Source: a virus. From it: a DNA stretch of 30,896 bases. The stretch is taken from IMG/VR virus record IMGVR_UViG_3300010430_000332, positions 1-30,896 of that record; one strand, given 5' to 3'. Numbering within the stretch: position 1 is the first letter of the stretch; every line of letters starts with the position of its first letter. The notes beneath the pieces are model-generated. The model made no database searches. It worked only from the letters and a program-made list of their open reading frames with translations, and was not told where the DNA came from. The translations under genes and the position numbers were made by a program. Below are positions 1,477 through 24,130 of the stretch, piece by piece.

Positions 1477-1682
1477 ATGATTGTCCCTACTGTTGATAAG
1501 CACCACCCATAAATGAAATATTTGAACTTATCTTTAAAAGAAAGCAATTCTATTAAGTTCTCTTCTGGCTTTATGGGAATTAATTGTCCTTTTTTAAAGT
1601 CATGTTCACCAGCGGGAATTTTAAAACCCGGTGGGATTCTTAATTTACCTTCATAGAATTCAAAATCTACGTGTTCTTTCAT
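1455..1682 (-). CDS. Small protein with C-terminal membrane anchor
   Basis: 75 residues. The N-terminal 50 are soluble, with the Pro/Gly-rich stretch RIPPGFKIPAGEHDF. Residues 54-73 (YFIYGWCLSTVGTIIWMIC) form one hydrophobic span that ends at the C-terminus, so a tail-anchored topology is likely. The ATG overlaps the TGA of the Sak4-like gene (ATGA), pointing to coupled translation. No family recognised. Possible roles include membrane tethering of the recombination machinery or a host-takeover function, but nothing in the sequence decides this. Confidence 0.65.
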   Translation of the reverse strand: MKEHVDFEFYEGKLRIPPGFKIPAGEHDFKKGQLIPIKPEENLIELLSFKDKFKYFIYGWCLSTVGTIIWMICQK

Positions 1683-2521
1683 ACTTCAATCCTCTTTTTA
1701 AGTTGATCAATCCATGCCTGGATCTTTTCTTTAGGCATTTCTTCTAAAGAGGCTGATTCAGATTTATCTAATCCTTTTTTGATGTACTCACCATCAACTT
1801 TAAGAATCTCGAACAGCTTTTTGATAGCGTTGACTTGCTCTTCAGTTGCCAAGGCTTGCGGGGCTGCATCTTTTTCCAAGATTTCTCTTCCGTATCTTTT
1901 TGCCACTTCATCGTAGCTAAACTCAAATCTTTCATATTCTTCCAATCCTTTGATTCGTGATTTGCGAACGTATCCCATTCTCTTCTTACCTTCTTTTTTA
2001 ATCTCAACCATAAGATCAAAAAGGTAAGGGAGTTTTTTATAACCGTCAGCTACCTGGCCGATGACTTCCATTTTACCACCATATTCATTTTTGGCATGAG
2101 CAGTAAAGATGACATTCATATCTAAGCGCATAATCAAGTTTAGAAGATGTTTCATTTGTTTGTTAGCTTCACCGTAGTGACGACCAAATTCATTTCCCAC
2201 TTTCTTTTCAGCACTTTCAATAAGGGAGTTGTAAACTACAGTTACTGGATCAATGATTAATGTTTTAAACTCATGCTTTTCAGTAAGGAGCGCTTTTACT
2301 TCTTTTAAGATTTCATCAAAGTCTTGAGACTGAAATATTGCACCTTCTTGATCTTCAAGCATATGTGTATATTGATCGTGCTCAGCACCACGCTCTGTAT
2401 CAATAAGATAAGGACGTGGGAACTGAATAGCAGCTGTTGTTTTACCAGCGCCTGCTTCTCCAAAGAATAAAGCTTTAAGACGCTTCTCGATTGTTGTTGG
2501 TTTTTTACCGCGTAATGGCAT
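1679..2521 (-). CDS. Sak4-like RecA-fold recombination ATPase (AAA_24 type)
   Basis: 280 residues from the ATG at 2521. An upstream start at 2551 is possible, but the internal ATG has AAGGA at a good distance and overlaps the previous stop by one base. The ATP-binding core is clear: Walker A GEAGAGKTT at residues 21-29, an early acidic LIDTERGAE segment, and Walker B TLIIDPVT with Asp91. Further conserved-looking blocks are FTAHAKNE and the VRKSR segment. The last 60 residues are helical and charged. Phage proteins of this architecture are Sak4-type single-strand annealing/recombinase ATPases, which work with a phage SSB; one is encoded at the end of the same operon. Other P-loop RecA-like phage ATPases are possible alternatives. 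Family call strong, biochemical role inferred. Confidence 0.82.
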   Translation of the reverse strand: MPLRGKKPTTIEKRLKALFFGEAGAGKTTAAIQFPRPYLIDTERGAEHDQYTHMLEDQEGAIFQSQDFDEILKEVKALLTEKHEFKTLIIDPVTVVYNSLIESAEKKVGNEFGRHYGEANKQMKHLLNLIMRLDMNVIFTAHAKNEYGGKMEVIGQVADGYKKLPYLFDLMVEIKKEGKKRMGYVRKSRIKGLEEYERFEFSYDEVAKRYGREILEKDAAPQALATEEQVNAIKKLFEILKVDGEYIKKGLDKSESASLEEMPKEKIQAWIDQLKKRIEV

Positions 2522-2718
2522 TAAATTTTTCCTTGTTTTTGATATGCACAATAAAGATAAAGCAATTTGTTGTATTGTTTTATTTCCATTTCACGTGCAT
2601 GTATATTTGTATTTCTGATTACGTGAGACGATGGTAATTCAATGGCATCACAGATATCATTCATTGGTATTCCTCGTCTCAATAGTTCTAGCAAAATCCT
2701 TCTTGCTGCATTCTTCAT
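2521..2718 (-). CDS. Small HTH-like protein upstream of the recombinase
   Basis: 65 residues if translation starts at the ATG at 2718, which has GGAG 6 nt upstream; the ATG at 2730 lacks a ribosome site. The segment from about residues 14-36 (RRGIPMNDICDAIELPSSHVIR) has the pattern of a helix-turn-helix: a helix, a short turn, then a second helix beginning IELPSSHV. The C-terminus is aromatic and basic (YNKLLYLYCAYQKQGK). It is a candidate DNA-binding regulator or recombination accessory factor. The stop overlaps the start of the Sak4-like gene by one base. Function not established. Confidence 0.6.
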   Translation of the reverse strand: MKNAARRILLELLRRGIPMNDICDAIELPSSHVIRNTNIHAREMEIKQYNKLLYLYCAYQKQGKI

Positions 2719-3243: not shown

Positions 3244-3272
3244 AATCTACACGTCTTCGACTTATATGTCAA
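3244..3272 (-). promoter_or_regulatory. Leftward promoter for the 148-residue gene and recombination operon
   Basis: On the minus strand a perfect -35 TTGACA (3272-3267), a 17-bp spacer and -10 TAGATT (3249-3244). It sits in the last codons of the upstream HTH gene and reads into the gene starting at 3211 after a leader of about 25-30 nt. The -35 is embedded in the dyad at 3259-3275, so binding there would block RNA polymerase. Confidence 0.6.
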
Positions 3273-3275
3273 GTG
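3259..3275. promoter_or_regulatory. Operator-like dyad, copy 1
   Basis: Minus-strand reading CACTTGACATATAAGTC, with inverted ends ACTT/AAGT. It matches the dyad at 6079-6095 at 14 of 17 positions. In both places the promoter -35 occupies the same position inside the dyad. It also encodes the C-terminal residues ALDI of the HTH protein, its proposed ligand. Confidence 0.5.
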
Positions 3276-3486
3276 CTTTTGGATAAAATTCTCTGAAGCT
3301 TACGATATGCGGGTATAGGGCTTGTAATTGTAGTGCACGAAGGGGTGGTACGCGTCTTTTTCCTTCTGCCCAACTTTGCACGGTACCCCCTGCAATCTTG
3401 AGTTTAGCGGCTAATTTAAGTTGGCTACCAGCTTCTCTGATGGCCTTTCTAGTTAATGTTGAATGTTCGTTAAGATTGACTTCCAA
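3262..3486 (-). CDS. Cro/YdaS-like helix-turn-helix regulator (TTG start)
   Basis: 74 residues. Residues 17-50 (from REAGSQLKLAAKLKI through GGTVQSWAEGKRRVPPLRAL) form a typical Cro/YdaS-type helix-turn-helix: the QLKLAAKL helix, a short turn, then the recognition helix around TVQSWAEGKR. The start is TTG at 3486, set by an AAAGGAG 7 nt upstream with no better ATG; weak start codons are common for regulators kept at low level. It is the first leftward gene, transcribed from the promoter at 3516-3545. It probably represses early promoters, its own included, by binding the dyads described here. No second repressor or integrase is seen, so there is no evidence for a full lysogeny switch. Fold call strong; targets inferred from position. 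Confidence 0.75.
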   Translation of the reverse strand: MEVNLNEHSTLTRKAIREAGSQLKLAAKLKIAGGTVQSWAEGKRRVPPLRALQLQALYPHIVSFREFYPKALDI

Positions 3487-3515
3487 TTTAATTCTCCTTT
3501 ATTAGAATAGGCCCA

Positions 3516-3545
3516 ATTGTATACGCCAATGGCTTGCCTTGTCAA
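3516..3545 (-). promoter_or_regulatory. Leftward promoter of the regulator gene
   Basis: Minus strand: perfect -35 TTGACA (3545-3540) with -10 TACAAT (3521-3516) after 18 bp; TATACA (3523-3518, 16 bp) is an overlapping alternative. The spacer contains the perfect odd palindrome GCCAATGGC (3525-3533), a possible operator. The TTG start of the HTH gene follows about 25 nt after the expected transcription start. Confidence 0.6.
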
Positions 3546-3562
3546 TAAAAGAATGCTATGGT
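3534..3562 (+). promoter_or_regulatory. Candidate rightward promoter overlapping the leftward one
   Basis: Plus strand: TTGCCT (3534-3539), a 17-bp spacer, then TATGGT (3557-3562) with an extended -10 TGC just before it. The hexamers are weaker than those of the leftward promoter. The two promoters overlap face to face, so their polymerases exclude one another. It would drive the replication-initiator operon at 3614 with a leader of about 45 nt. Confidence 0.4.
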
Positions 3563-3613
3563 TGTTTTTCGTCTAACAAAAGCTCAGGGTTTGAGCGCAC
3601 AAGGAGTATATAT

Positions 3614-4501
3614 ATGTCTGTAAAAGCGATGGCATGGGCGTGGGAACAGGATACTACGCCAAATGAGACTTTAGTTCTTCTTTCACTAGCTGATCACGCT
3701 AACCAAGATTTTGAATGTTGGCCAAAAACTAAAACATTAGAAAAAAAGACCAAGTTAACTCAGCGATCTATTTTTAGATTATTGAAAGCACTTGAGGAAA
3801 AAAACATCATCAAAAGGTGTAAACAATTTGACCAAAGAGGGAGTAAAATTCAGAACAAATATTTAATTTTACACCCCGATGTACCGTGCACGAATGTCAG
3901 TACCCATATGACACAGTGTCATGACCCTAGTGACACAGTGACACCCCCCCTCCTGACACAGTGTCATATCTATAATAGGAAGAACCATCATAAAGAACCA
4001 TCAATAGAATCCGGCAAACCTTCGAAGAAGGATTTGGTGTCTGAAATTTTTGAATATTGGCAAGAGGTATTGAATCACCATGGGTCAAAACTTGACCAGA
4101 ATAGAAGCACTCATATTGAGCGAGTGTTTAAGCTGGGATATGACAAGTTTGATTGTTTTTTGGCCATTCGAGGATGTAAGGCGAGCAAGTGGCATATGGG
4201 TGATAACCCCCAGAATAAGAAATACGACGATTTGGGATTGATATTTCGCAATGCTGAGAAGATTGAGAAGTTTATCAAGAGCTCAGGTGTATTGATCCCG
4301 AAAGAAGCAAAACATCCCAAGACAGCATTCAAGGCATGCTTTGAAGAGGAGCCGGCTGGGATTTTATTTGTGATCAAAGAAAGGATTAAGGCGAAGTTTG
4401 ACGGGGACTGGAATAAATTTGCAGCGTTGCCTGGCAACAAGCAGTGGATTGCATTTGAGTCGATTTATAAACATTCAATGGCACAAGTGATGCCAGTATA
4501 G
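3614..4501 (+). CDS. Helix-turn-helix replication initiator (O-like), with iterons inside the gene
   Basis: 295 residues from the ATG at 3614, chosen because AAGGAG lies 7 nt upstream; a TTG at 3539 in the same frame overlaps the promoters and is rejected. Residues about 14-70 (NETLVLLSLADHANQDFECW, then a TLEKKTKLTQRSIFRLLKAL segment) form the winged HTH typical of phage replication proteins (HTH_36 type). Residues about 92-118 are a low-complexity linker with repeated TQCH, encoded by the iteron array. The C-terminal domain from about residue 135 contains EIFEYWQEVLNHHGSKLD and an FRNAEKIEKFI segment, as in O-like or DnaD-like initiators that load host helicase. It heads the rightward early operon. 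No helicase, loader or polymerase gene follows, so host replisome recruitment is inferred. Confidence 0.75.
   Translation: MSVKAMAWAWEQDTTPNETLVLLSLADHANQDFECWPKTKTLEKKTKLTQRSIFRLLKALEEKNIIKRCKQFDQRGSKIQNKYLILHPDVPCTNVSTHMTQCHDPSDTVTPPLLTQCHIYNRKNHHKEPSIESGKPSKKDLVSEIFEYWQEVLNHHGSKLDQNRSTHIERVFKLGYDKFDCFLAIRGCKASKWHMGDNPQNKKYDDLGLIFRNAEKIEKFIKSSGVLIPKEAKHPKTAFKACFEEEPAGILFVIKERIKAKFDGDWNKFAALPGNKQWIAFESIYKHSMAQVMPV
3887..3966. repeat. Iteron array, putative replication origin inside the initiator gene
   Basis: Four copies of a 13-bp dyad: 3909-3921 and 3954-3966 are TGACACAGTGTCA (perfect inverted repeats about a central A), 3931-3943 is TGACACAGTGACA, and 3887-3899 is a degenerate TGCACGAATGTCA. 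Starts are spaced 22, 22 and 23 bp, about two helical turns, so an initiator would meet all copies on one DNA face. The arrangement is that of lambda ori inside the O gene. A modestly A+T-rich stretch follows the last copy. Confidence 0.72.
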
Positions 4502-4511
4502 GAGAGAAGAG

Positions 4512-4877
4512 ATGAAAGAAGACGATTTTAGTGGAAATTTTGGTGATCCTGAGCCAGATCGATATACCTGTGACTACATGCTGATGAGCAAACAGAAGTG
4601 TGGGAAGGATTCAGTGTTGGGTATTCCAAAGTTCAAGGGACCTTCACGAGGACGTCAACCAAATGAATTTAGGCATGCTTGTGAAATCCACCGACATCTC
4701 TATGTTGAGCGTGACTGGCGTGAAGACATGCTTGATCAGCGCATGAAGGAAGACAAAGAGCGATTACTTGAAATGTTTGGATCTGAGAAAGTGAAAATAA
4801 TGAACGGATATGAGAAAATGCGAGCCCTGCTCGGCTCTCTGCCAAAAGCACTAAATTCAATTGTGAGGAAACCATGA
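4512..4877 (+). CDS. Hypothetical protein with Cys/His pairs
   Basis: 121 residues, not recognised. Start ATG at 4512 has AGGAGAG upstream, overlapping the initiator stop. The N-terminal half has Cys at about residues 20 and 30, then HACEIHRHLYVERDW near residue 55-70. This Cys/His set could bind zinc in the manner of small phage HNH-like or zinc-finger proteins, but the spacing is not a textbook motif. The C-terminal half is helical and charged (LDQRMKEDKERLLEMF). It shares the ATGA overlap with the next gene, so it belongs to the rightward early operon. Confidence 0.6.
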   Translation: MKEDDFSGNFGDPEPDRYTCDYMLMSKQKCGKDSVLGIPKFKGPSRGRQPNEFRHACEIHRHLYVERDWREDMLDQRMKEDKERLLEMFGSEKVKIMNGYEKMRALLGSLPKALNSIVRKP

Positions 4878-5080
4878 GTATATTTGACCATCCCTATGTC
4901 AAGCGAGCTGAGGATTTTGTCAATCTTCAGTCGGATCGTCCAAAAGATGATCTGTTTATTGTTTATGAGTTCGCTGTGTGGCTTTCCCATCAGATGGAAA
5001 CGCCTAAAGTCGATTCTAAGGTGGTTAGAATGCCCGTGGCTGCACGAAACCCCAAAATAGGTGGAAATGCATGGGGTTGA
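4874..5080 (+). CDS. Hypothetical 68-residue early protein
   Basis: Starts at the ATG overlapping the previous TGA (ATGA at 4874), with AGGAAA upstream. The N-terminal 45 residues (around YVKRAEDFVNLQSDR and LFIVYEFAVWLSHQM) look helical and amphipathic. The C-terminal 20 are basic and Pro/Gly-containing, possibly unstructured. No family recognised; operon position suggests a replication or host-takeover accessory. Confidence 0.55.
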   Translation: MSIFDHPYVKRAEDFVNLQSDRPKDDLFIVYEFAVWLSHQMETPKVDSKVVRMPVAARNPKIGGNAWG

Positions 5081-12495: not shown

Positions 12496-14259
12496 ATGAG
12501 AGATAAAGCACACGTAGAGCCATTAGATAAGCGATTTGATCGTTATAATAATGCATTGGGTCGCCGTAATCTGTGGAATACTCAGTTAGAGCAAGCTTAT
12601 CGCTGGATGATGCCAAATAGAATTAACCTTCTTGATGACAATTTCCAAGCTACTGGAACTAACTTAGCTATTCGTGGTGAGCAAAGAATGAACTGGATAT
12701 TTGATCCTACGGGGATTGAATCGCTTCAGTCATTTGCTAATAATATGCAAACTTCATTAATGCCTCCTTATTCAGAGTGGGCGGATTTAGAGTTAGATGA
12801 GAATTTTGTAGATCCTAAGCAGAATCAGCGTTTTCATGATCAGTTTGGTCCGATCACTGAGCAGACAATTAGGGATGTGAGAGATCAACTTGAATCTGCT
12901 ACTAAGATTCTATTTGATAACTTTCAGAAGGCTCGATTGGATCAGGTTGTTAATGAGGCTATGTTGGATGTTGGCATTTCAACTGGCGTAATGATTGTTA
13001 ATGAAGGAACACTTGAGCAGCCATTGCAGTTTCAGGCTATTCCGGCTAATAAGGTTGTGATTGAAGGTGGTCCTTATGAATCACTGGCTAACTTCTTTAA
13101 TCCACTTAGAATGCCAATAAGTGAGATAATGGTAAGATGGCCAGAAGCTAAGTTGAATTCAAACCTTGAGAATCAGCTAAAGAATTCACCACATACACCT
13201 ATCGATCTTATTGAGGCTACACTTTATTATCCTGAGAATGAGATTGGTCAGCAGTATTATTATTTTGTGATGACTAATGGCGGTGAGCATGAGCTTGTTG
13301 GTCAGTGGCGTGAAATTGATCCTTGGATTGGTTTCCGTGGTGGTAAATCACCTGGTGAGATTTATGGACGTGGTCCAGCATTAACTGCATTGCCAACTGT
13401 TCGCGTATTGAATAAGCTTCAAGAGTTTATGTTACGCAGTGCTCAGATGCAGGCGTATCCTATTTTGATGATGACTAATACTGGTGATGTGAATCCTAAT
13501 ACGATTGAGATGAGTCCTGGTGCATTGGTTCCATTTGGTCCTGATATTATGCAGGGTAAAGATCCGATTCGACCACTTCAATTGTCTGGTAATGTTCAAG
13601 CGACGCAGGAGCAGATTCAGGATATGCAACAAGGCATTCGTGAGATGATGTTTGCTAATCCTATTGGACCTAATACGCCTGTTAGTCAGAGCGCTACTCA
13701 GTCAACTATCCTAAATAATAACTGGATTATGAAGAATGCTGGATTCTTTTCAAGATTATCTGTTGAGCTTTTTCCTCAGTTGATCGATAAGTCCTTGCAC
13801 ATTTTAACAAGACGTAATGTATTGCCATTGCTTGATATTAATGGCGTTAAGATTCCTATGCGATTGAATCGTGGGATTATACGTTTGCAGTATACTAATC
13901 CAGCTGGTAAGGCCGAAGAAGAGCGTGAAGCTCAAGCGATCTTACAAGGTATGCAAGAAAGTATTAATTTATTTGGTCCAGGGGAAGGTTTGCTTCCTTA
14001 TAACATTGCTGAATTCCAAGATGAGGTGTTATCTAAACTTGGAACTCCAGAGAGCATGCTTAATCCTCAGTTTAAAGGGGTTGCAGAAGCATTAATGCAA
14101 AGTATTATGGGCCAATTACAACAAGCTGCACAGCCACAGCAGCAACAGGGTGTCGCGCCTTCTCCGCAACCATCGGCAACGGGGACGCCGTCTCCTGTAA
14201 GTGCGTCTGCTCAAGTTGCTCAACCGCTAAGTGGAGGAGGTGCACCTGGTGGACAATGA
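12496..14259 (+). CDS. Portal (head-tail connector) protein, T7 gp8-like
   Basis: 587 residues forming the dodecameric ring through which DNA enters and leaves the capsid. The N-terminal region (LEQAYRWMMPNRINLLDDNF) is the Tyr/Trp/Pro signature of podovirus connectors (LW..AYR...P). Further supporting stretches are SFANNMQTSLMPPYSEWADL, the mid-protein EIYGRGPALTALPTVRVLNK and the channel-side IREMMFANP. The C-terminal 50 residues are Gln/Pro/Ser/Gly-rich and disordered. T7 gp8 has 536 residues, so the size fits. The last 11 bp overlap the next gene. Confident call. Confidence 0.9.
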   Translation: MRDKAHVEPLDKRFDRYNNALGRRNLWNTQLEQAYRWMMPNRINLLDDNFQATGTNLAIRGEQRMNWIFDPTGIESLQSFANNMQTSLMPPYSEWADLELDENFVDPKQNQRFHDQFGPITEQTIRDVRDQLESATKILFDNFQKARLDQVVNEAMLDVGISTGVMIVNEGTLEQPLQFQAIPANKVVIEGGPYESLANFFNPLRMPISEIMVRWPEAKLNSNLENQLKNSPHTPIDLIEATLYYPENEIGQQYYYFVMTNGGEHELVGQWREIDPWIGFRGGKSPGEIYGRGPALTALPTVRVLNKLQEFMLRSAQMQAYPILMMTNTGDVNPNTIEMSPGALVPFGPDIMQGKDPIRPLQLSGNVQATQEQIQDMQQGIREMMFANPIGPNTPVSQSATQSTILNNNWIMKNAGFFSRLSVELFPQLIDKSLHILTRRNVLPLLDINGVKIPMRLNRGIIRLQYTNPAGKAEEEREAQAILQGMQESINLFGPGEGLLPYNIAEFQDEVLSKLGTPESMLNPQFKGVAEALMQSIMGQLQQAAQPQQQQGVAPSPQPSATGTPSPVSASAQVAQPLSGGGAPGGQ

Positions 14260-14596
14260 TTTTGATGATCTATTTGATATTAATAGAGTACCTGATATGC
14301 CTGAGCATCAGCTTAAGTACTGTCAGGCGCTTCATGAGGTTTTCGAATTAACGGAGCTTGGCAGAGATTTATTGGAGCTATGGGAGAAATCTTATTTATA
14401 TTCTCCAAATGTGCCTCCATTGCAAGATGCATTAAGTTATCCTGACTGGTATCCCTATGTTCGAGAAGGTGAGAATCGGTTTATACGTACAATATTGACT
14501 GATCTTAAGCGGTATAAGCAATATAAGGAGAAAAAATATGACAGAAGCAGTTCAAGTGAGTCAAGGAGCACAAGAAGCGTCAATATCGACAGGTAG
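14249..14596 (+). CDS. Bbp19-like phage protein
   Basis: 115 residues from GTG at 14249. GGAGGAGG ends 8 nt upstream, inside the portal gene, and decides this start over GTG at 14231. The centre (ALHEVFELTELGRDLLELWE, then the YPYVREGENRFIRTI block) matches my recollection of the Bbp19 family of Bordetella-phage-like podoviruses, found between portal and scaffold; its function is not known to me. The Ser/Arg-rich tail SSSESRSTRSVNIDR is read out of frame with the scaffold gene that begins 59 bp before this stop, so that tail may be a by-product of overlap. Confidence 0.65.
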   Translation: MDNDFDDLFDINRVPDMPEHQLKYCQALHEVFELTELGRDLLELWEKSYLYSPNVPPLQDALSYPDWYPYVREGENRFIRTILTDLKRYKQYKEKKYDRSSSSESRSTRSVNIDR

Positions 14597-15449
14597 TTCC
14601 TATGAAGGCGCACCGAGCGGTGCTATTGAGCCAATGGTTAACGTGAATAGTAACGCAGGTGGTCCACATTTGGATCATGAGGGTGCTCATACAGAGTCTG
14701 GTATTCCTCAGAATAAAGCAGTTGAGCTTAGTGAAGAAGCAAAAGCAGCTCAAGCAGCTCAATCTGATGCACCAGCCGCTAATGGCGAATGGTTTTTAAC
14801 AGAAGATGTTAAAGGTGAAGGAGATGCCCCAGATTGGTTATCTGATCGTTATAAGACAGTTGCTGATCAAGCAAAAGCTTATAAAGAGCTTGAAAAGAAA
14901 ATGGGTAGTTTCAGTGGTGCTCCTGATGAATATGAGATTGAATCAACAGAGGCATTAGAAGCTAGTGGGTTTGATTTAGAGGATCCTGAGATTCAGGGAT
15001 TTATTGATATGGCAAAGGACAGCAATATGTCCAATGACATGCTCAATAAGATGCTTAACATGCATGCTGAGAAGCTCACAGCTTTTAATAATGTGAGTGA
15101 TGATGATATAGCTGAATATAAGCAAGCTGAACTTCAGAAGTTGGGCGATCAAGCGCCTCAGATCACTGAATACGTTAAAAACTTTGCTGGTAACAATTTG
15201 AGCCCAGAGGAAGCTGAGATATTGGCTGACAATGTTGATTCTGCTGATATGCTTTTGGTCATGAAAAAGATCATTGATCAGACGCGTAATGCGCCATTGG
15301 TTGGTAATCAAGCAAATGCATCTAGTATTACCTCTAAAGATGAGGCTCGTAAGCTCTTAGCCAATCCAAAATATGGCAAAGATGATGCTTATACTCAATG
15401 GGCAAATTCTCAATATGAGCAAGCCTACATGTCTGGTTCTATTCGATAA
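14538..15449 (+). CDS. Capsid scaffolding protein
   Basis: 303 residues, acidic and helical as in T7 gp9-type scaffolds. The N-terminal 70 residues are low complexity. Then WLSDRYKTVADQAKAYKELE starts the conserved-looking block, followed by GAPDEYEI, typical of podoviral scaffolds. The C-terminal part (from SKDEARKLLANPKYG through YEQAYMSGSIR) is the likely capsid-binding helix region. AAGGAG 6 nt before the ATG. Located between portal and capsid genes as expected. Followed by a strong terminator. Confidence 0.85.
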   Translation: MTEAVQVSQGAQEASISTGSSYEGAPSGAIEPMVNVNSNAGGPHLDHEGAHTESGIPQNKAVELSEEAKAAQAAQSDAPAANGEWFLTEDVKGEGDAPDWLSDRYKTVADQAKAYKELEKKMGSFSGAPDEYEIESTEALEASGFDLEDPEIQGFIDMAKDSNMSNDMLNKMLNMHAEKLTAFNNVSDDDIAEYKQAELQKLGDQAPQITEYVKNFAGNNLSPEEAEILADNVDSADMLLVMKKIIDQTRNAPLVGNQANASSITSKDEARKLLANPKYGKDDAYTQWANSQYEQAYMSGSIR

Positions 15450-15461
15450 TTAGAAAGCGAT

Positions 15462-15499
15462 GGATTGTGTGATGTAATGTTGCACAATCCTTTTTTTTT
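15462..15499 (+). terminator. Rho-independent terminator after scaffold
   Basis: GGATTGTG (15462-15469) and CACAATCC (15483-15490) form a perfect 8-bp stem with a 13-nt loop, followed by nine T (15491-15499). A textbook intrinsic terminator 12 nt after the scaffold stop. Confidence 0.9.
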
Positions 15500-15538
15500 G
15501 TTTAGAATATAAGCAAGTGGGGTACCATCCTATCCGAT

Positions 15539-15588
15539 GTCCTACTCATTTGATAATTAATTGATCATTCGAGTAGCGACCTTTTTTT
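15539..15588 (+). terminator. Second terminator before the major capsid gene
   Basis: GTCCTACTC (15539-15547) pairs with GAGTAG-c-GAC (15571-15580) with one bulged C. An inner TGAT/ATCA stem (15551-15554 with 15564-15567) closes a 9-nt loop. Seven T follow at 15582-15588. The stem is weaker than the first terminator and may be leaky. The gap 15500-15538 between the two terminators holds no gene. Confidence 0.65.
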
Positions 15589-15651
15589 AAGACACTCGCA
15601 AAAGAAATGATAGAAGTAAATATTTTATTATAATTTTTGGGAGTCTTTAAA
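15589..15651 (+). promoter_or_regulatory. A+T-rich leader of the major capsid gene
   Basis: Between the second terminator and the capsid ATG, very A+T-rich, with GGGAG 8 nt before the start. A weak promoter, AAGACA (15589-15594) with TAGAAG (15611-15616) after 16 bp, would give a leader of about 29 nt. TATAAT at 15629-15634 is in the wrong place, as it would start RNA inside the ribosome site. An A/U-rich leader can also raise translation. Promoter assignment weak. Confidence 0.3.
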
Positions 15652-16497
15652 ATGACTATGAGTTTATTCGATGTTCGGGTTCAGCAGTTCTCCGACATGT
15701 TTGTAAATGTCTTCCAACAACGCATTTTCCGTCTTGATAACACAACTCAAGTACGTCGTGGCGTAGTTGGTAGCATTTTTCATGAGAAAGTAGCAGGTCA
15801 AGTATTACTACATGATCGTGGTGCTTACCAATCTGATATCTCACCTAGTGATGTATCTTATACTGACGTTCAGTTAACCTTCAACGATAGAGTAGCGTTA
15901 TTCCCTACTGATATCTTTGAGCAAGCAACTGTAAATGCTAATGAGCAAATGAACTTAGCTAAACAGTCTGCGATGGCTATTGCGCGTCGTGAAGATCAAA
16001 TTGTGATCAACGCACTAGAAGCAACTACTACTACTCCGATTGCGGCTGGTGGTACTAACTTGACTGTAGATAAATTGCTAGAAGCTAAACTTGCTCTTGA
16101 TGCGGCTAACGTTCCGCCTGAAGATCGCTTCTTCGTAATGCATGCTAACCAGGCTCGTTCTTTGCTTCAAGAAACTCAGGTTTCTAATGCAAACTACAAT
16201 ACTAGTCGTGTGCTTGCTAACGGTATGATTGATACCTTCCTAGGTTTCAAATTCATCACGTTTGGTGACATGCTTGAAGGTGGTTTACCACTTGCTGCTG
16301 GTATCCGTACTAACTTTGCATTCCAAATGGATGCAGTGTTGATGGCATATGGTCAGTTCACTGGTATGAGTAACCCTGGTATTAATATCGATTGGGATCC
16401 TCGTCGTCAATCTCACTTAGTAATTCCACGTCTTCGTGCGGGTGCTAAAGTGATTTTAGACAATGGTGTTGTACCAGTATTATGTGACGAATCATAG
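15652..16497 (+). CDS. Major capsid protein (HK97-fold, podovirus type)
   Basis: 281 residues from ATG 15652 (GGGAG upstream; an upstream TTG at 15637 is rejected). Builds the icosahedral shell around the scaffold. Supporting segments: LDNTTQVRRGVVGSIFHEKV near the N-terminus, VALFPTDIFEQATVNANEQM, a central EDRFFVMHANQARSLLQ (the P-domain block seen in these capsids) and the C-terminal INIDWDPRRQSHLVIPRLRA. The length matches phage capsid family members of this type. It is isolated from upstream transcription by two terminators and followed 11 bp later by a probable decoration gene. Highest-expression gene expected. Confidence 0.88.
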   Translation: MTMSLFDVRVQQFSDMFVNVFQQRIFRLDNTTQVRRGVVGSIFHEKVAGQVLLHDRGAYQSDISPSDVSYTDVQLTFNDRVALFPTDIFEQATVNANEQMNLAKQSAMAIARREDQIVINALEATTTTPIAAGGTNLTVDKLLEAKLALDAANVPPEDRFFVMHANQARSLLQETQVSNANYNTSRVLANGMIDTFLGFKFITFGDMLEGGLPLAAGIRTNFAFQMDAVLMAYGQFTGMSNPGINIDWDPRRQSHLVIPRLRAGAKVILDNGVVPVLCDES

Positions 16498-16508
16498 GAG
16501 ATTAAATC

Positions 16509-17060
16509 ATGGCTTTTAGTAGAAGTTATATTGGACGTCAATCAGCGTCTCTATCACACATTACTGTGCCTCAAGGTTATACCTATAACGGTACAACTAA
16601 TGGTTCAAATGATTCACTAGCTACCATTAAAGCATCTGCTTATTTCAATGAAATGATCAGTGAATTTAGTGTTGGCGATTGGATCATGATCAATGGTAAT
16701 GATGGTTATGATATCGTTGTAGTTACTTCGGTTACTACTAATGTTGCTGTAACTACTGTTCTTGGCGCATTGCCTGCTGGTTCTGTTGAGCTTGCTGATC
16801 TCGCAAGTGGAATTTCTCCACAAGCTGTGATCAAAGCTTCTGATACAGTAACTACAATTGGTGGTGGCGCAACTGAAGCATTTGTTGATGGAAGCATCCT
16901 TTTGGGTGATGAAGTATTTGTTCAAATGCAAACTGTTGGTGCAGCTCCTGTTACAGTAGTTAGCGCTATTGCAACAGCTGGCGGTATTTCTGTTACATTT
17001 AGCGGTGATCCTTCAAATGATCATGTTATTATGTATCAAGCGATGCGTCCGGCTACTTAA
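16509..17060 (+). CDS. Capsid-associated (decoration-like) protein
   Basis: 183 residues, rich in Val, Thr, Gly and Ala with regular strands (SVGDWIMINGNDGYDIVVVT; GALPAGSVELADLASGISPQ; VSAIATAGGISVTFSG). An N-terminal MAFSRSYIGRQSASLSHIT opening and a SAYFNEMI segment recur in proteins encoded directly after podoviral capsid genes. Cotranscribed with the capsid gene (AGGAG before the ATG) and cut off by a terminator, so equimolar production with the capsid is likely, fitting a decoration or cement protein. Role inferred from context. Confidence 0.65.
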   Translation: MAFSRSYIGRQSASLSHITVPQGYTYNGTTNGSNDSLATIKASAYFNEMISEFSVGDWIMINGNDGYDIVVVTSVTTNVAVTTVLGALPAGSVELADLASGISPQAVIKASDTVTTIGGGATEAFVDGSILLGDEVFVQMQTVGAAPVTVVSAIATAGGISVTFSGDPSNDHVIMYQAMRPAT

Positions 17061-17069
17061 TGTAGCATA

Positions 17070-17107
17070 TGAGGATCTTCATGCTTAGGTGGAGATCCTC
17101 ATTTTTT
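17070..17107 (+). terminator. Rho-independent terminator after the capsid pair
   Basis: TGAGGATCT (17070-17078) and AGATCCTCA (17093-17101) form a 9-bp perfect stem with a 14-nt loop, followed by six T (17102-17107). Separates the capsid and decoration genes from the tail genes. Confidence 0.9.
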
Positions 17108-17123
17108 AAAAAGAGAGATTAAA

Positions 17124-17738
17124 ATGTCATCAGCCGCAGGTACTTCTAAGGTAGAGATAATCTCGCAGGCACTTTCTTTACTAGGAAAGCCTCGAGTTGT
17201 TAATGATCTTAATGAGAATAAGACTACGATTGCTGTATCGAAGCTTTATGACACATGGAAGCTAAAGATGCTCTCAAGTTTTCCGTGGAACTTTTCACGT
17301 AATACTGAGCTTCTATCCCAGCTTACTGAAGAGCCTATTAATACTTTCTGGCAATATGCTTATCAGCTCCCTTCTGACTTTTTGATGTTAAGGGCGATTT
17401 ATATAAAAGGCGCTGGAAATAAGTTCACTAATTTTGAGATTCAAAGAGATCAAGTTTGGTCTAATTATAGTGACAATCTTTTGATTGAATATCATCGTAA
17501 TATGGCAGAAGATGACTTTCCTGGTTACTTTGTGACGGCAATCACCACTCAGATTGCTGCGATTTCCTGTATGCAGGTAACTCAGGACACTACATTGACT
17601 CAATTTTGGGCAGAAGTGGCTAAAGAAGATCTTATGAATGCTAAGTACCAAGATTCTCAGTCAGAGCCTGGTTCTTTTATTCAAGATAATGAACTTTATG
17701 CGGCTCACTATGCAGGTGGTCGTGGAGGATATTGGTAA
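17124..17738 (+). CDS. Tail tubular protein A (gp11-like)
   Basis: 204 residues. Forms the ring beneath the portal that starts the short tail. The N-terminal IISQALSLLGKPRVVNDLNE segment, the helix with LYDTWKLKMLSSFPWNFSRN and the later YAYQLPSDFLMLRAIYI are classic for this family, as is a C-terminal DLMNAKYQDSQ block. T7 gp11 has 196 residues, matching in size. AGAGAG before the ATG. It precedes tail tubular protein B by two bases. Confidence 0.88.
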   Translation: MSSAAGTSKVEIISQALSLLGKPRVVNDLNENKTTIAVSKLYDTWKLKMLSSFPWNFSRNTELLSQLTEEPINTFWQYAYQLPSDFLMLRAIYIKGAGNKFTNFEIQRDQVWSNYSDNLLIEYHRNMAEDDFPGYFVTAITTQIAAISCMQVTQDTTLTQFWAEVAKEDLMNAKYQDSQSEPGSFIQDNELYAAHYAGGRGGYW

Positions 17739-17740
17739 AA

Positions 17741-19753
17741 ATGGGTTCATTTATTGTCCAACAGAGTTTTACGCATGGTGAAATGAGTCCTAGAGCAATT
17801 GCTCGCAATGATATTACCCTCTATGCCAAGAGTGCTCAGAAGATGCGCAATGTATTGGCAATTCCAGAAGGTGGTGCGAGGCGTAGATTTGGTACTAAAT
17901 TCCTAGTTGATATTGAAGAGCAAGCAGCTAACCCTATTGTTGAAGATCAGTACAACCTATTTGAGTTTCAGTTCTCTGAGACCCAGAATTTTATTGGGGT
18001 AATTCTGGACTCTGAGATATTGATGTATGATTCAGATGGTGCTTTTGTTAACTCTGTTACCACTCCTTATGGCGGATCTGATATAGATTCTGTTAACTTT
18101 GCACAAAGTACTAACTTAATGATCTTTGCTCATCCTGACTACAGTCCTAGACAGATGAGTTATGATTCAGGACTGAATACATTTTCTTTTACGACTATTG
18201 GATTTACCTTTGTTCCGCCACATGATTTCGTACCTGGAACTTATGATGCTCAGACTTTTACATTAGGAGCGACAACAGGAACTTCTGTAAACTTAACCGT
18301 AAGTGCTGGCACATTTACATTTACTGATGAATTCGTGGGTGGTTATTTTAGTGCAGCAGGTCCCGATGTAACACAGCCTATTGGTTATGCTCAGATAATA
18401 TCGCGCACATCATCGACAGTAGTTGTAGTTGATATCATTAATGAATTTGCAGCAACTGCCAATAAAGGAACTCAAGTCGCTGTCGCTGCAAAAGCGTGGA
18501 GCGATACGGAAGCAGATAGTTCGGGAAACCGCGGTTGGCCACAAACTGTAACTTTTTATCAAGACAGGCTATATTTTGGCGGTTCCCGATCTCTGCCCCA
18601 GACTTTATTTGGATCACGTGTTGGTGATTTCATTGATTTTGATATTGGAACTGGTGAAGCAGATGAGGCAATTGTTGCTGAAATATCTAGTAATGAGATA
18701 AATGATATTAAGCATTTAATTGCTGATAGATCATTGCAGGTATTTACATTTTCATCGGAATGGTCGCCTCCTCAGGATGCCGATCAACCGTTGGAGCCTG
18801 GTAATATCTCAATTCGCAAGCAAAGCAACTACGGAAGCTCATCTGTTGACCCGGTCCTTCTTGATAATGCTACTTTCTATGTTAAGCGTGGTGGTAAGGG
18901 CGTTATGTCCTTCCAGTTTAACTTTGATACAAGTTCTTATGAATCTACAAATGTTAGTATCATTTCTAACAACCTAATAAGAAATCCTGTAGATTCAGCT
19001 ATACTTCAGGGATCTCCTGATGATGATGCTGATTACTTGTTCTTGGTAAATGATGATGGAACTGTAGGTGCGTTTCAGGTATTGGCATCTCAGGATATAT
19101 CAGCGTGGTCACTTTTGGATACGCAAGATCATGTTCAAGGTCATTCAACTCAAGCGAATGTTAAGCGTGCACAAGAAATTGGGACAAATGTCGTTTTCTT
19201 GGTTGAACGAATCGTGTCTGGTCAGGTTAAGCGTTATATTGAGCGTGCTGACTTCAATATTTATACTGATTGTTCTATTGTGCAGACATTTGGATCCCCT
19301 CAGAACACGATTACAGGTCTTGGTAAGCTAGAAGGTGCGTTAGTTCAAATACGTGGTGATGATTATGTATTTCCTCCTCAAGTGGTAATTGGCGGTCAAG
19401 TTTCACTTCCTGATGGCGCAACGGTTTCTAATGCTCAGGTAGGCTTAGGGTTTACACCTATTTTACAGACTCTTCCGGTAATTACTGAGAGTCAGGATGG
19501 TCTTTTAAACTTTATTCCCAAGCGCATTAATCGATTTTTTGTGCAATACTATGAGTCATTGGGTATTTATGCGGATGATACTCTTTTACCGAATTTAGCT
19601 TTTCCACAAACATTAGATGTTCCAAGTCTACCTATAACGGGGATTGATGAGGTTTATAAGCAAGATTGGAGTGATGCGCCTTCCATTACAATTACACAAG
19701 AAGGCCCACTTCCAATGACAATATTAGCAGTTGGATATGAGGTAACACCATAA
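17741..19753 (+). CDS. Tail tubular protein B / tail nozzle (gp12-like)
   Basis: 670 residues from ATG 17741; a TTG at 17732 in frame is closer to GGAGG but less likely. The start (SFTHGEMSPRAIARNDITLY, then an NVLAIPEGGARRRFGTKF block) is the hallmark of podoviral stabilisation/nozzle proteins. Further features are QTVTFYQDRLYFGGSRSLPQ and the SSEWSPPQDADQPLEPGNIS stretch. The protein is a beta-propeller-like hexamer in T7 (gp12, 794 residues), so this is somewhat shorter. It ends in VGYEVTP with a TAATG overlap into the next gene. Confident. Confidence 0.88.
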   Translation: MGSFIVQQSFTHGEMSPRAIARNDITLYAKSAQKMRNVLAIPEGGARRRFGTKFLVDIEEQAANPIVEDQYNLFEFQFSETQNFIGVILDSEILMYDSDGAFVNSVTTPYGGSDIDSVNFAQSTNLMIFAHPDYSPRQMSYDSGLNTFSFTTIGFTFVPPHDFVPGTYDAQTFTLGATTGTSVNLTVSAGTFTFTDEFVGGYFSAAGPDVTQPIGYAQIISRTSSTVVVVDIINEFAATANKGTQVAVAAKAWSDTEADSSGNRGWPQTVTFYQDRLYFGGSRSLPQTLFGSRVGDFIDFDIGTGEADEAIVAEISSNEINDIKHLIADRSLQVFTFSSEWSPPQDADQPLEPGNISIRKQSNYGSSSVDPVLLDNATFYVKRGGKGVMSFQFNFDTSSYESTNVSIISNNLIRNPVDSAILQGSPDDDADYLFLVNDDGTVGAFQVLASQDISAWSLLDTQDHVQGHSTQANVKRAQEIGTNVVFLVERIVSGQVKRYIERADFNIYTDCSIVQTFGSPQNTITGLGKLEGALVQIRGDDYVFPPQVVIGGQVSLPDGATVSNAQVGLGFTPILQTLPVITESQDGLLNFIPKRINRFFVQYYESLGIYADDTLLPNLAFPQTLDVPSLPITGIDEVYKQDWSDAPSITITQEGPLPMTILAVGYEVTP

Positions 19754-20232
19754 TGGGTGCAGTAACAGGTACATTGCTAGGCGGAAGTTTAATTGGGGGC
19801 GGCATAGGCCGTCACGAGCAAACTGAGGCTGCTGAACAAGCAAATGCATTAAGATTGCGTGAAGAGCAGGACGCAGAAACAAATCGCTCTGTACAGCGTA
19901 CTAGACAGCTTAATGAAGTATTAGCTCAGCAAGTAGCTCAAGAAGGTGCGAGTGGATTTAGTTTATCAAGTCCTTCTTTTGCAGCTATTGGTGAAGATTC
20001 GTTTAACCAATATGCAGCTGATGAGAATGCAGATGCATTGAATTTAGATTTTGATAAGATGGGCGCAGCAATTAGTGATCAGAATGCACAAAGGTCAGAA
20101 ATATGGGGCGATGTTGGCTCTGTTTTCAGTGCTGCAGAAACCATGTATTCAGGAGGGTTTAAAACTTCGAATCCAAGATCTGCAGCTGGAAATAAGAAAG
20201 CTCCTTCACCAAATGAAAATGGAGTATTGTAA
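19753..20232 (+). CDS. Internal virion protein, gp14-like
   Basis: 159 residues. The N-terminus GTLLGGSLIGGGIG is Gly-rich and hydrophobic, as in small ejection proteins that insert into the outer membrane. Residues 22-65 form a Gln/Glu/Arg-rich helix, and the C-terminus is disordered. Gene order (after gp12-like, before a gp15-like protein) matches T7 gp14 (196 residues). Start and stop overlap neighbours (TAATG on both sides), so expression is coupled. Assignment rests mostly on order and composition. Confidence 0.65.
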   Translation: MGAVTGTLLGGSLIGGGIGRHEQTEAAEQANALRLREEQDAETNRSVQRTRQLNEVLAQQVAQEGASGFSLSSPSFAAIGEDSFNQYAADENADALNLDFDKMGAAISDQNAQRSEIWGDVGSVFSAAETMYSGGFKTSNPRSAAGNKKAPSPNENGVL

Positions 20233-22550
20233 TGAGTCGATTACCAAGATTTAGAGCAACTCAACAAATTCAACCAGGACCTACGCCAGTAAGCACGCAA
20301 GGGCGCGGGTTGACTCAATTTGCTCAGCAAATTCAGCAAACAGAGCAAAAGCAATTTCTTCAACAGCAAGTCCAAAAGGCAGAAACAGCGGGCGAATTAG
20401 CTGGATTGCAGCCTGGATTTCAACCAGTAGCTGGTGGAAGTGAGGCTCAACGTGCTTTTAATCAGGCGGCATTAGCTACAAATAAACAACAAATTGCAAC
20501 CAATGTAATGCTTAATATCGAGAAATTTAAGCAGCAATCAATCTCTCAAAATCCGGATGCAGCCGTGGCTTATCAGCAATTTAATGCATTAGCTCAGCAG
20601 CATTCAGCTCAAGTTTTACAAGCAGTTCCTGAGCAGAATAGGGCGTATGCTCAAAACTTGTTGACTCATCAAATTGGATCAGCACAATTAGAATTGCAAC
20701 AAAGAGCGCTTAAACAACAGAAATTAAAAGCTAATGCTCAAGCGGTTCAAACATTAAATACTTATGATGAAAAGATTAATGATTCAATTAATAATATAAA
20801 TTGGTCTATGGGTGGAAAAGATGATACTTGGGAAGGTGTTGGTGGTAATGCTTTAGTTGGTTCACAGGTGAATGCTGCGGGCGCTTTGTTGGCGCAAAAA
20901 CAGCAGACTGCATCTTTAATGCTTGAAGGTGGTCAAATCACGAAGCGTGAATTTGATGCAATGAACAAAAATGATCAAGTTAATTTTAGACAAAATATTA
21001 TCCTTTCTCAGTTAAGATCAAAATTGAATGATGGTACTGCTGAGCCTTTTCTTAAGAAATTAACTTCTCAAAGCATTCCTGGGTTATCTGAGACTCAACA
21101 GCAGACCGTATTATCTAAAGCATTTAAAATGCGTAGTCAGTTTAATAATGCTGACCAACAAAATAAAGCTCTCGTTGCAAAGAATACTCAAGATTATATT
21201 TTTGGAATACAAAATGGCGCTCCTAGAAATGTCAGAATGGAAAGTACTTTTAATAGAACGTTTCCTGAAAAAAGTGGATTGCTTCAAGAGCAGGTTCAAG
21301 ATGCCCAGAAACTTCATGATACTGTAAGTGGTATATTGAGCTTACCTTTTGCTAAGCAGCAAGAAGCGTTAGATCATTTAAGACCAACAGATAAGGATGA
21401 TCCTGATTTTGGGCGCAATCTTAAGAATTGGAATTCAGCTAATTCGATGATTGCTCAAGCAAGACATAAGATTACCACAGATCCATTTCCTTATTTTGCA
21501 AGTCAGCCAAATATGGTTCATACCTATAACGAACAAGCTGCTCAGAATGATGCTGGTGTAGATTTAAATTCAATGTCTAGTTTAGGTGGTTTTAAGCCAT
21601 TATCTAAGAATCCAAAAGAAGCCATGGTAGTTGCTCAGCTTCAATATGGATTGCCATTAAATCAAACAAAGATTGTTTCAAATGAAAATGCTAAGTTGAT
21701 GGTAAATAATTTTAATGGATTGGCTCCTCAGCAACAGGTTAATCAGCTAGCTCAATGGCAGCGTGAATATGGTCAAACTTTCCCTATTTTAATGAGAAAT
21801 CTTCAGCATGATGGAAAAATGAAGTCAATGGATACATTCTTGGTTGGTGTTAGTCCGAATGACACGAGACTTCCAGATGTTGTTCAAGCCATGAATACTG
21901 ATGTTCCCACCTTGAAAAAGGCTCTTGATCCATCAAAATTTGAAGATCTTGAAACCGCAATGACACCTGGATTCTTTACTGATCAGCCCCTTGATGATTT
22001 TATTAATAGTTTGGGTGCATTCAAAAGTGTTTCAACAGCAGCCTATGTTGCGAAGACAAGAACATTAACTCAAAAGATTGCAATGTCTATGATGATAAAT
22101 GATTCATCTTTATCAGCTAAAGATGCGTGGCAACAAGCATCTGGGTTTATTACCGATAGATTTAATTTTGATTCTATTAACGGCTCTCCTATTAGGATAC
22201 CAAAGCAATTTGACCCGGGTGCTGTTAAATTTTATGCACAAGAAGAGCAGAAGAAGATTAAAGATTTCCCTTTTGTAATTTCACAAGATGCAAAAGGACT
22301 TCCAAATGCTCGTCAAGTTGACTTTAATACTACTATTAAAACTGGACACTGGGCTACAAATGCTCAAAACACGGGGTTAATTTGGGTCAACAATCAGGGT
22401 TCTGCAATGCATGATGGAAAAGGTCATACATTTCAAATATTCTTTAAAGATGCTTCTAACTCAAGTGCTAGAGCATTATTTGAGGAAGAGCAAAAGAATA
22501 AAAAACAAGTTAATTCAGATATTTTAAATTATAATCCGGCACTGCAATGA
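20232..22550 (+). CDS. Internal virion protein, gp15-like
   Basis: 772 residues, close in length to T7 gp15 (747). The first 170 residues are Gln/Ala-rich helices (GLTQFAQQIQQTEQKQFLQQ). The rest is long alpha-helical sequence with few membrane-type segments, ending in KKQVNSDILNYNPALQ. In T7 such proteins leave the capsid with the DNA and build a periplasmic channel. Position between gp14-like and gp16-like genes supports the role. The 3' end overlaps the next ATG (ATGA). Confidence 0.7.
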   Translation: MSRLPRFRATQQIQPGPTPVSTQGRGLTQFAQQIQQTEQKQFLQQQVQKAETAGELAGLQPGFQPVAGGSEAQRAFNQAALATNKQQIATNVMLNIEKFKQQSISQNPDAAVAYQQFNALAQQHSAQVLQAVPEQNRAYAQNLLTHQIGSAQLELQQRALKQQKLKANAQAVQTLNTYDEKINDSINNINWSMGGKDDTWEGVGGNALVGSQVNAAGALLAQKQQTASLMLEGGQITKREFDAMNKNDQVNFRQNIILSQLRSKLNDGTAEPFLKKLTSQSIPGLSETQQQTVLSKAFKMRSQFNNADQQNKALVAKNTQDYIFGIQNGAPRNVRMESTFNRTFPEKSGLLQEQVQDAQKLHDTVSGILSLPFAKQQEALDHLRPTDKDDPDFGRNLKNWNSANSMIAQARHKITTDPFPYFASQPNMVHTYNEQAAQNDAGVDLNSMSSLGGFKPLSKNPKEAMVVAQLQYGLPLNQTKIVSNENAKLMVNNFNGLAPQQQVNQLAQWQREYGQTFPILMRNLQHDGKMKSMDTFLVGVSPNDTRLPDVVQAMNTDVPTLKKALDPSKFEDLETAMTPGFFTDQPLDDFINSLGAFKSVSTAAYVAKTRTLTQKIAMSMMINDSSLSAKDAWQQASGFITDRFNFDSINGSPIRIPKQFDPGAVKFYAQEEQKKIKDFPFVISQDAKGLPNARQVDFNTTIKTGHWATNAQNTGLIWVNNQGSAMHDGKGHTFQIFFKDASNSSARALFEEEQKNKKQVNSDILNYNPALQ

Positions 22551-24130
22551 GAATAGATGATCAGGATAACAATCAGACGCCAAATGAGGAGCCAAGTTCT
22601 TCTGGTATGCCAATGCCTGGACCTCAGATATTTGAATCGGATGATAATCCAAAAGTATATATTAATAACTGGACTAATTTTATAAAAAGTGGTGAGCAAG
22701 CTGCTACTCAATCTAGTGTGGTTAGGCTTTATCGATCAGTTCGCAATACAGTAAATGATGCCGATACTGATTCTCCGGTTTTAAATTCAGATCAAATTGA
22801 TGATTTAAGAAAAAACAGACCTGGTCTTGGCTTATATACCGGAATCAGGCAAAAAACAGCAAATGCTATTGTAAATGATTATGATTCTAATCAAGCTCGC
22901 CAGAATATTCTTTCACATGCAGAGCCAACGATTTGGGGTGGTATTAGTGGTTTTGCTGGGACAATGTCTGGTTCTCTAATTACTGACCCTTTGGCGACTG
23001 GTGCCGCCATTGGGGTTGGTATTTTGCAGCCTGAAACGATACCCGAAATGGTTGGTGCTGAATCTCAGACGATGGGTCAAGCATTAGTTGAAAGAACAGC
23101 GAGTCGAGTAGCAAAAGGAGCTCTAGAGGGAGCTGCGTTTAGTGCTACTCAAGAAGGTGCTAAAAAAATAGAGGATGCTACCAATGGGGACACATTTGAT
23201 TCTTACCGTGCTGGGCTTAATATTGGCGCTAATATGTTTTGGGGTGGGGCCTTGCATAGCCTTGGTGGATTTATTTCGGACCAGTTTAAAAAGCCGGCTC
23301 AAGTGTTGGAGGGAAAGCCATCAATAGGAACAGATGCATCTTTAGATACTTCTCAAACAGCAACTCAGATGCTTGGAAACGGACAAGATCCCCAAGTTGA
23401 TTTTCCTATTAAGAATGGCTTTACGCAGCAAGTTCAAAAGCTTCATCAAGATATGTTCAACAATAATATATCTAGTGAAGATATGCTTAATGCTTTGGAC
23501 AGCGCAAAAGGCTCTATTGATGAAAGTCTTTCTCCGTTAAACGATCAGCTTAAGCCATTAGACGATGCTTTAAGTGATGCAAATTTAACGTGGGAACAAG
23601 TTAAAAATATAAATAGTCAGATGGAAGATCCTGAGGATTTTTCTCCTATTGGCAAGCTATTTAATAAGATTTCGCCTATTTTGCAGGCAGCTCAAGATCT
23701 GAGTGGAAAAGATTCAATTGATGATGCTATTGATGAAATAAACCCTATTTGGGAAAACAGAAAAGATCTTCAAATGAGATCCAAATCTGAAGAAGTTTAT
23801 AGGGCTATGGTTAATTCTCCAGAGCAGAATTTAACAAAAGAAAACATGAATGAATATGTAAATAACGTTCGTGATCCAGAAAATGATTATGTTAATGGGA
23901 TTGGTCAGCAATCTCCTGATGTAGAAGGTGCGCCTATTAAAAGTCAGAAGAGTCTATTAGAAGATAGATTTCCTGATGACTATAAAAAGGAGTTGCTCGA
24001 CAATACTACACTTACTGATGATGAACAAAATGAATTAGATGAGATAAATAAGAAATCTCAAGCTAAGTCAGCTCTAAGAAAGGCTTTAGATAGGACTATA
24101 ATGTGCCTAGGAGGTACTGCTGGTGAGTAG
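22547..24130 (+). CDS. Internal virion protein, N-terminal half of a gp16-like ejection protein
   Basis: 527 residues. The first 70 are acidic and Pro/Asn-rich. Residues about 126-164 (IWGGISGFAGTMSGSLITDP, then ATGAAIGVGIL) and 220-245 form hydrophobic, glycine-zipper-like helices able to insert in membrane. The C-terminal 250 are charged helices. With the next gene (842 residues) the total is 1369, close to the single T7 gp16 (1318), so one ancestral protein may be split in two. I see no lytic transglycosylase motif, which T7 gp16 carries at its N-terminus. Role inferred from order. Confidence 0.6.
   Translation: MRIDDQDNNQTPNEEPSSSGMPMPGPQIFESDDNPKVYINNWTNFIKSGEQAATQSSVVRLYRSVRNTVNDADTDSPVLNSDQIDDLRKNRPGLGLYTGIRQKTANAIVNDYDSNQARQNILSHAEPTIWGGISGFAGTMSGSLITDPLATGAAIGVGILQPETIPEMVGAESQTMGQALVERTASRVAKGALEGAAFSATQEGAKKIEDATNGDTFDSYRAGLNIGANMFWGGALHSLGGFISDQFKKPAQVLEGKPSIGTDASLDTSQTATQMLGNGQDPQVDFPIKNGFTQQVQKLHQDMFNNNISSEDMLNALDSAKGSIDESLSPLNDQLKPLDDALSDANLTWEQVKNINSQMEDPEDFSPIGKLFNKISPILQAAQDLSGKDSIDDAIDEINPIWENRKDLQMRSKSEEVYRAMVNSPEQNLTKENMNEYVNNVRDPENDYVNGIGQQSPDVEGAPIKSQKSLLEDRFPDDYKKELLDNTTLTDDEQNELDEINKKSQAKSALRKALDRTIMCLGGTAGE

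Follow-up and report, generated by a model that had tools for sequence, protein, structure and literature searches.

Putative iteron origin in the linker codons of an HTH_36 phage replication initiator, and covariation of related sites with the recognition helix

The window, meaning the whole stretch of DNA analysed, is a single viral contig of 30,896 bp, and the features recognised in it are collected in Table 1. The gene under study encodes a protein whose PF13730 score is 51.1 bits, which passes the gathering cut-off of 25. It also matches several replication-initiation PHROGs, including the three given in the table, with a best E of 2.4e-18. By domain and PHROG similarity, the window protein is an HTH_36 (PF13730) phage replication initiator. 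An initial annotation, made from sequence alone, began the gene at an upstream TTG; this is corrected here, the ATG at 3614 being the likelier start. In the AlphaFold2 model, residues 1-90 form one block with pLDDT values of 93-98 and a helix at 50-62. Across residues 91-140 the pLDDT is mostly below 60, with a minimum near 40, and the iterons are thus predicted by the model to encode a disordered linker. No close DNA-bound template is available from the PDB, where Foldseek returns only generic winged helices (best E 0.0044) and a sequence search with the window protein gives a best E of 0.004.

Neither Pfam nor PHROG gives a match for the two genes that follow the initiator gene (4512 and 4874), and no helicase or loader is recognised beside the window initiator. 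One of the two could conceivably be an unrecognised helicase-recruiting partner. Among HTH_36 relatives, many initiator genes lie after CI, Cro, or CII genes and before P-like, DnaB-like, or primase/helicase genes. The structural genes hint at a podovirus-like particle with a lambda-like replication start, which is only a tentative reading. PADLOC detects nothing in four neighbouring genes.

Table 1. Features of the 30,896-bp window and their coordinates
Feature	Position	Strand	Remarks
AAA protein, similar to Sak4-like single-strand annealing protein	1679-2551	-	phrog_124 E=7e-30; PF13479; adjoins replication region
Small Cro/YdaS-like repressor gene	3262-3486	-	divergent from initiator gene; shared promoter region 3487-3613
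Replication initiator gene	3614-4501	+	295 aa; HTH_36 winged helix at N-terminus; PF13730 E=1.2e-13; PHROGs 1032, 270, 391
Winged-helix DNA-binding domain, coding part	3614-3877	+	residues 1-88; recognition helix 50-62 with R51 and R55
Low-confidence linker, coding part	3881-4021	+	residues about 90-135; contains array and AT-rich tract
Degenerate iteron copy	3887-3899		TGCACGAATGTCA; 22 bp upstream of copy 1; beyond the one-mismatch limit
Iteron copy 1	3909-3921		exact TGACACAGTGTCA; read as TQCH
Iteron copy 2	3931-3943		TGACACAGTGACA; 1 mismatch; other frame; read as DTVT
Iteron copy 3	3954-3966		exact TGACACAGTGTCA; read as TQCH
AT-rich, A-over-T tract, proposed DNA unwinding element	3967-4010		AAGAACCATCA at 3980 and 3993, in two frames
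Two genes	4512-4877, 4874-5080	+	occupy the helicase/loader place of relatives
Structural genes	12496-26651	+	head-tail adaptor family; weak matches to internal virion protein with endolysin domain

The iteron array occupies codons 98-117 of the initiator gene; with the degenerate upstream copy included, the start-to-start spacings are 22, 22, and 23 bp. With at most one mismatch, the dyad TGACA-N3-TGTCA occurs five times in the 30.9-kb window, and three of these are the iteron copies. Three such dyads are found in 0 of 5000 codon shuffles of the gene, the maximum being 2. Copies 1 and 3 consist of the codons ACA-CAG-TGT-CAT, whereas copy 2 is read as GAC-ACA-GTG-ACA in a different frame, because spacings of 22 and 23 are not multiples of three. 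The use of two reading frames indicates that the DNA, and not the peptide, is conserved; selection on the peptide probably offers little explanation for one DNA word read in two frames.

The sites and spacings of the initial annotation are confirmed, and so is its count of three strong copies and one degenerate copy, with three solid copies counted here and the one at 3887 missed at one mismatch. Its description of two copies as perfect dyads is true of the half-sites TGACA and TGTCA only, the central base of an odd-length dyad being unpairable. Its claim that the repeats force TQCH repeats into the protein applies to copies 1 and 3, and not to copy 2. The broader claim that the DNA site shapes the protein holds in principle, and its details are partly wrong because two frames are used.

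The array is followed directly by the AT-rich tract. The first 40 bp from 3967 are less stable than 97.9% of the contig, and this instability is weaker over longer spans of 60-100 bp, at about the 81st percentile. Base counts for 3967-4026 comprise 27 A and 12 T. The cumulative G-C minimum of the window falls at 4023, just beyond the repeats. This agrees with the skew switch that the initial annotation expected at an origin here, but gene direction flips near 3487-3613 and confounds the signal, which is not counted as strong.

A scan of viral contigs for two dyads of the TGACACnGTG type gives eight loci. In six of them (L004, L006, and L008-L011), the array falls within the linker codons of a gene that an HMM confirms as winged-helix, and a seventh (L007) has the same layout as judged by eye; the eighth (L005) does not have this layout. 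A wider viral scan, which allows any three central bases, gives at least 120 stretches. Among its loci, 19 have an HTH initiator gene that encloses the array, and in 3 the array adjoins such a gene. In L039, L067, L122, and L167, the array is outside the host ORF and beside a winged-helix gene with R51 and R55; in L039 it is followed by an ORF with a P-loop, which is DnaC-like by eye. Arrays that adjoin the ORF rather than lie within it still accompany R51/R55 helices. The expectation of the initial annotation for relatives is borne out: the dyad arrays keep their location, and the peptides they encode differ between relatives.

Dyads of this kind also occur in other settings. Many of the remaining loci of the wider viral scan, such as L102, L117, L132, L155, and L209, contain AT-rich TGACA-N3-TGTCA pairs 30-33 bp apart, mostly not in long ORFs. 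These may represent a separate class, perhaps of operators or promoter elements, and they were set aside from the origin class. The minus strand of L211 has seven TGACA dyads, mostly at 15-bp spacing, in a 370-aa ORF that is unmatched by the winged-helix HMM. In bacterial genomes (L012-L100), pairs of TGACACnGTGTCA palindromes are found widely in the intergenic DNA of Firmicutes and other groups, and several sit immediately upstream of TetR-type genes. The bacterial palindrome is likely to be a common operator. The motif alone was rejected as evidence, given that the bacterial palindromes are mostly intergenic and several lie beside TetR-type genes. It is informative only jointly with linker position and helix residues.

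Initiators were gathered by protein similarity in order to avoid selection by motif. The relatives were passed through an iterated HMM, and redundancy was removed at 80% identity, since one viral scan gave mostly near-identical prophages; the resulting set comprises 232 genes, 201 of which are protein-selected. Of the 73 protein-selected R51/R55 genes, 36 have TGACA-N3-TGTCA with at most one mismatch in the linker, compared with 1 of the 128 others (Fisher p=3e-18). A de novo dyad search by helix class finds GTGAC in R51/R55 genes, mostly GTGCA in R51/N55, GTGAA (TGAAC) in R51/K55, and GTGTC in S51/R55; in codon shuffles the maximum is 1-2 genes. A total of 85 genes, read in the frame GTG-XY-N5-Y'X'-CAC, exceed a score unreached by any codon-shuffled linker. 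In 84 of these 85 genes, a C at Y and an Arg at residue 55 are either both present or both absent. Lower-scoring genes outside that table, the window included, agree on Y and residue 55 in 20 of 21 cases. This agreement is an internal check and not independent data, as the frame was suggested by the same data.

Mutual information between 84 domain columns and the inner bases places column 55 at the top. For generic dyads in 108 genes, the best columns by z at positions -7, -6, -5, -4, -3, and -2 are 54, 54, 51, 55, 55, and 52, respectively, with column 55 carrying slightly more information than 52 at position -2. The scan is unbiased over the 84 columns, and the top column at all six half-site positions is within the recognition helix (51-55). 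At half-site position -8, the same 84-column scan of 108 genes found no helix column. Arginine-guanine contacts are common, and the pairing of residue 51 with G(-5) and of residue 55 with base -3 fits such a contact; there is no structural proof here. Four relatives (L416, L402, L451, and L454) have RxxR helices, with Arg at column 54, and CGGAA-type dyads. This suggests that residue 54 might read the outer half-site bases. Exceptions are four R51/R55 genes with GTGTC and one with GTGCC instead of GTGAC, and the code is therefore incomplete.

A tree that leaves out the helix columns has 15 changes between Arg and non-Arg at residue 55 and 16 changes of the Y base. Independent pairs on well-supported branches number only three, all of them concordant, and because supported branches are few in this test, close matched pairs were added as a second control. 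Pairs of Arg55 genes and close non-Arg55 genes are concordant in 33 of 34 cases, at identities of up to 83% outside the helix. The coliphages provide an example, with mEp554 (S51) having GTGTC four times and mEp044 (R51) having TGACACAGAGTCA three times. The half-site changes together with the recognition helix that the same gene encodes, and this links the sites to the initiator in which they lie.

Another explanation is that the dyads are sites for a different DNA-binding protein, for example a host or phage TetR-type repressor. The mostly intergenic TGACACnGTGTCA pairs of bacteria, several of them beside TetR-type genes, are in its favour. However, the half-sites track the initiator's own helix residues even among close relatives, which a shared host factor would not produce. 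A TetR-type operator is expected to be an intergenic palindrome by a regulator gene, and this is not met in the window, where all three solid copies are within the initiator ORF. A different binding protein is thus very unlikely.

The layout of the array recurs in the relatives. The commonest dyad spacings are 21-24 bp, and the copies occupy more than one reading frame in 56 of the 85 relatives with a confident array. Sites of the gene's own type number 278 in 17.8 kb of linker and 3 in about 126 kb of other gene parts and flanks. As the caller considers the linker only, this density contrast reflects absence elsewhere in the called genes and is not an unbiased location for all genes. No confident repeated linker dyad (score <7) was found in about 40% of 213 family members, a set that includes some distant helix-turn-helix proteins, perhaps not initiators. 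The array-less members may have sites elsewhere or of another form.

The DNA repeats could alternatively be a by-product of selection on a linker peptide (TQCH/DTVS) or of recent tandem duplication. Linkers often hold low-complexity or repeated peptides, and some relatives have same-frame repeats. Against this, the window gene uses two frames and most of the confident arrays use more than one, conservation is limited to the dyad while the bases between are not conserved, codon-shuffled linkers do not reach the observed score, and the half-sites covary with another part of the protein. Even though such repeats occur, this origin of the array is very improbable.

The relatives also share the AT-rich zone. 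Averaged over 85 relatives, the two 20-bp bins after the last dyad are 8% and 12% richer in AT (standard error about 1.2%), and A exceeds T in the zone. GAACC repeats, mostly at 11-17 bp spacing, are present in two or more copies in the zone of 37 of 86 genes, where random windows drawn from these genes predict 0.06, and in 23 of these 37 genes they occupy more than one frame. Within the zone, glutamate codons that precede proline are GAA and GAG at 88:2, compared with 616:592 for glutamate elsewhere. In GC-rich genes these ratios are 37:0 in the zone and 215:303 elsewhere.

A further possibility is that the dyads are only operators for autoregulation, which limit initiator expression or phage copy number, and that the origin is elsewhere. 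Covariation with the recognition helix is expected just as much if the protein merely binds its own gene, and such binding could block transcription. In contrast, the AT-rich repeat zone after the array is an origin feature without a role in a simple operator, as is the match to the origin layout of lambda and P22, and the sites lie some 300 bp into the gene, away from the promoter. The operator-only explanation is therefore unlikely.

The preferred reading is that the window gene encodes a replication initiator and contains its own iteron origin. This is very likely, with binding and origin activity not measured. The sequence data establish the repeats with their location and reading frames, their recurrence in relatives, the covariation with the helix, and the AT-rich zone. 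In the proposed mechanism, a dimer of the winged-helix domain would bind each TGACA-N3-TGTCA dyad with one monomer per half-site, Arg51 would read the G of TGACA, and Arg55 would read the G opposite its C. The three dyads, about two helical turns apart, would assemble an O-some-like complex, and the AT-rich GAACC-repeat tract would melt and admit the replicative helicase. Binding of a dimer to the dyad, the contacts at atomic level, melting of the tract, and loading of the helicase rest on inference. The unstructured linker would tolerate many in-frame sequences, so that a DNA site could persist or be replaced without much change to the protein fold.

The family displays a residue-base code because the sites of each relative sit in its own gene. 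In this code, position -5 goes with residue 51, -3 with 55, -6 and -7 with 54, and -2 with 52 and 55. A bolder reading, which is likely, is that HTH_36 initiators are a self-annotating DNA-binding family whose target sites are stored in their own linker codons. The base-by-residue code (51, 52, 54, and 55 against -7 to -2) would then be readable from sequence alone, and origin specificity would diverge by coupled changes of helix and array within one gene.

The HTH_36 initiator family is large and diverse, and has no detectable sequence relation to lambda O. Since the protein is encoded on the same short DNA segment as its site, genome sequences alone yield many natural pairs of protein and DNA specificity. 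This makes the family a test bed for initiator-origin coevolution, for how replication is kept private from relatives, and for the predictability of a winged-helix recognition code. It also offers an easy way to find the origin in many temperate phages now annotated with no more than an 'O-like replication protein', and explains odd peptide repeats (DTVS, TQCH, and RTSHSFEPVNEP) as imprints of DNA sites.

Lambda O with ori-lambda, and the origins of Stx phages and of P22 gene 18, resemble the window in having the origin within the initiator gene. In the lambda/P22 type, dyad iterons also recur at intervals of about 20-24 bp, in mixed frames at mid-gene codons, with an AT-rich tract on their C-terminal side (PMC7466680, PMC4488673). 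In lambda, the four annotated iterons of gene O fall in codons 116-138, in mixed frames, and the DNA after them is 77.5% AT. The annotated origin of P22 gene 18 spans nt 352-496, and the dyads called by the same scan begin at 352; the scan thus recovers both annotated origins. Lambda gene O contains iterons and an AT tract, and O proteins are dimers (PMC7466680). Changes to lambda iterons that keep the O protein sequence abolish plasmid transformation (PMC7466680), and O binds iterons via its amino-terminal half (PMC4488673). This literature supports the proposed mechanism. Skew, relatives, the AT tract, and covariation likewise support the initial annotation's view of a lambda-type intragenic origin bound by its own product, without data on binding or origin activity.

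In contrast, lambda O and P22 gp18 belong to Phage_rep_O (PF04492; E 5.7e-36 and 6.9e-38), for which the window protein has no match. Comparison of the window protein with lambda O by hhalign gives a probability of 2.7 over 9 columns, with no detectable homology, and the lambda iteron sequences differ from those of the window. The window system would work like ori-lambda by analogy, while membership of the lambda O family is not shown. No residue-base code for the lambda family was found described in the open-access papers searched.

Temperate phages such as SfV/mEp460 and ZF40, and Stx phages of several Eru types (PMC8951638), have HTH_36 'O-like' replication proteins with the same N-terminal domain family as the window protein. 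For Stx phages, HTH_36 proteins are named in the replication types without mention of iterons (PMC8951638). No report of linker iterons or a helix-to-site code in these proteins was found in the open-access literature, where papers name the domain only. Intragenic origins are known from lambda; HTH_36 linker iterons and the helix-to-site code are unreported in the open-access literature searched. In iteron plasmids with winged-helix Rep, initiator sites are repeated about two turns apart with an AT-rich opening region adjoining, as covered in a review (PMC5043065). The iterons of those plasmids are usually outside the rep gene, whereas those of the window are in the linker codons of the initiator itself.
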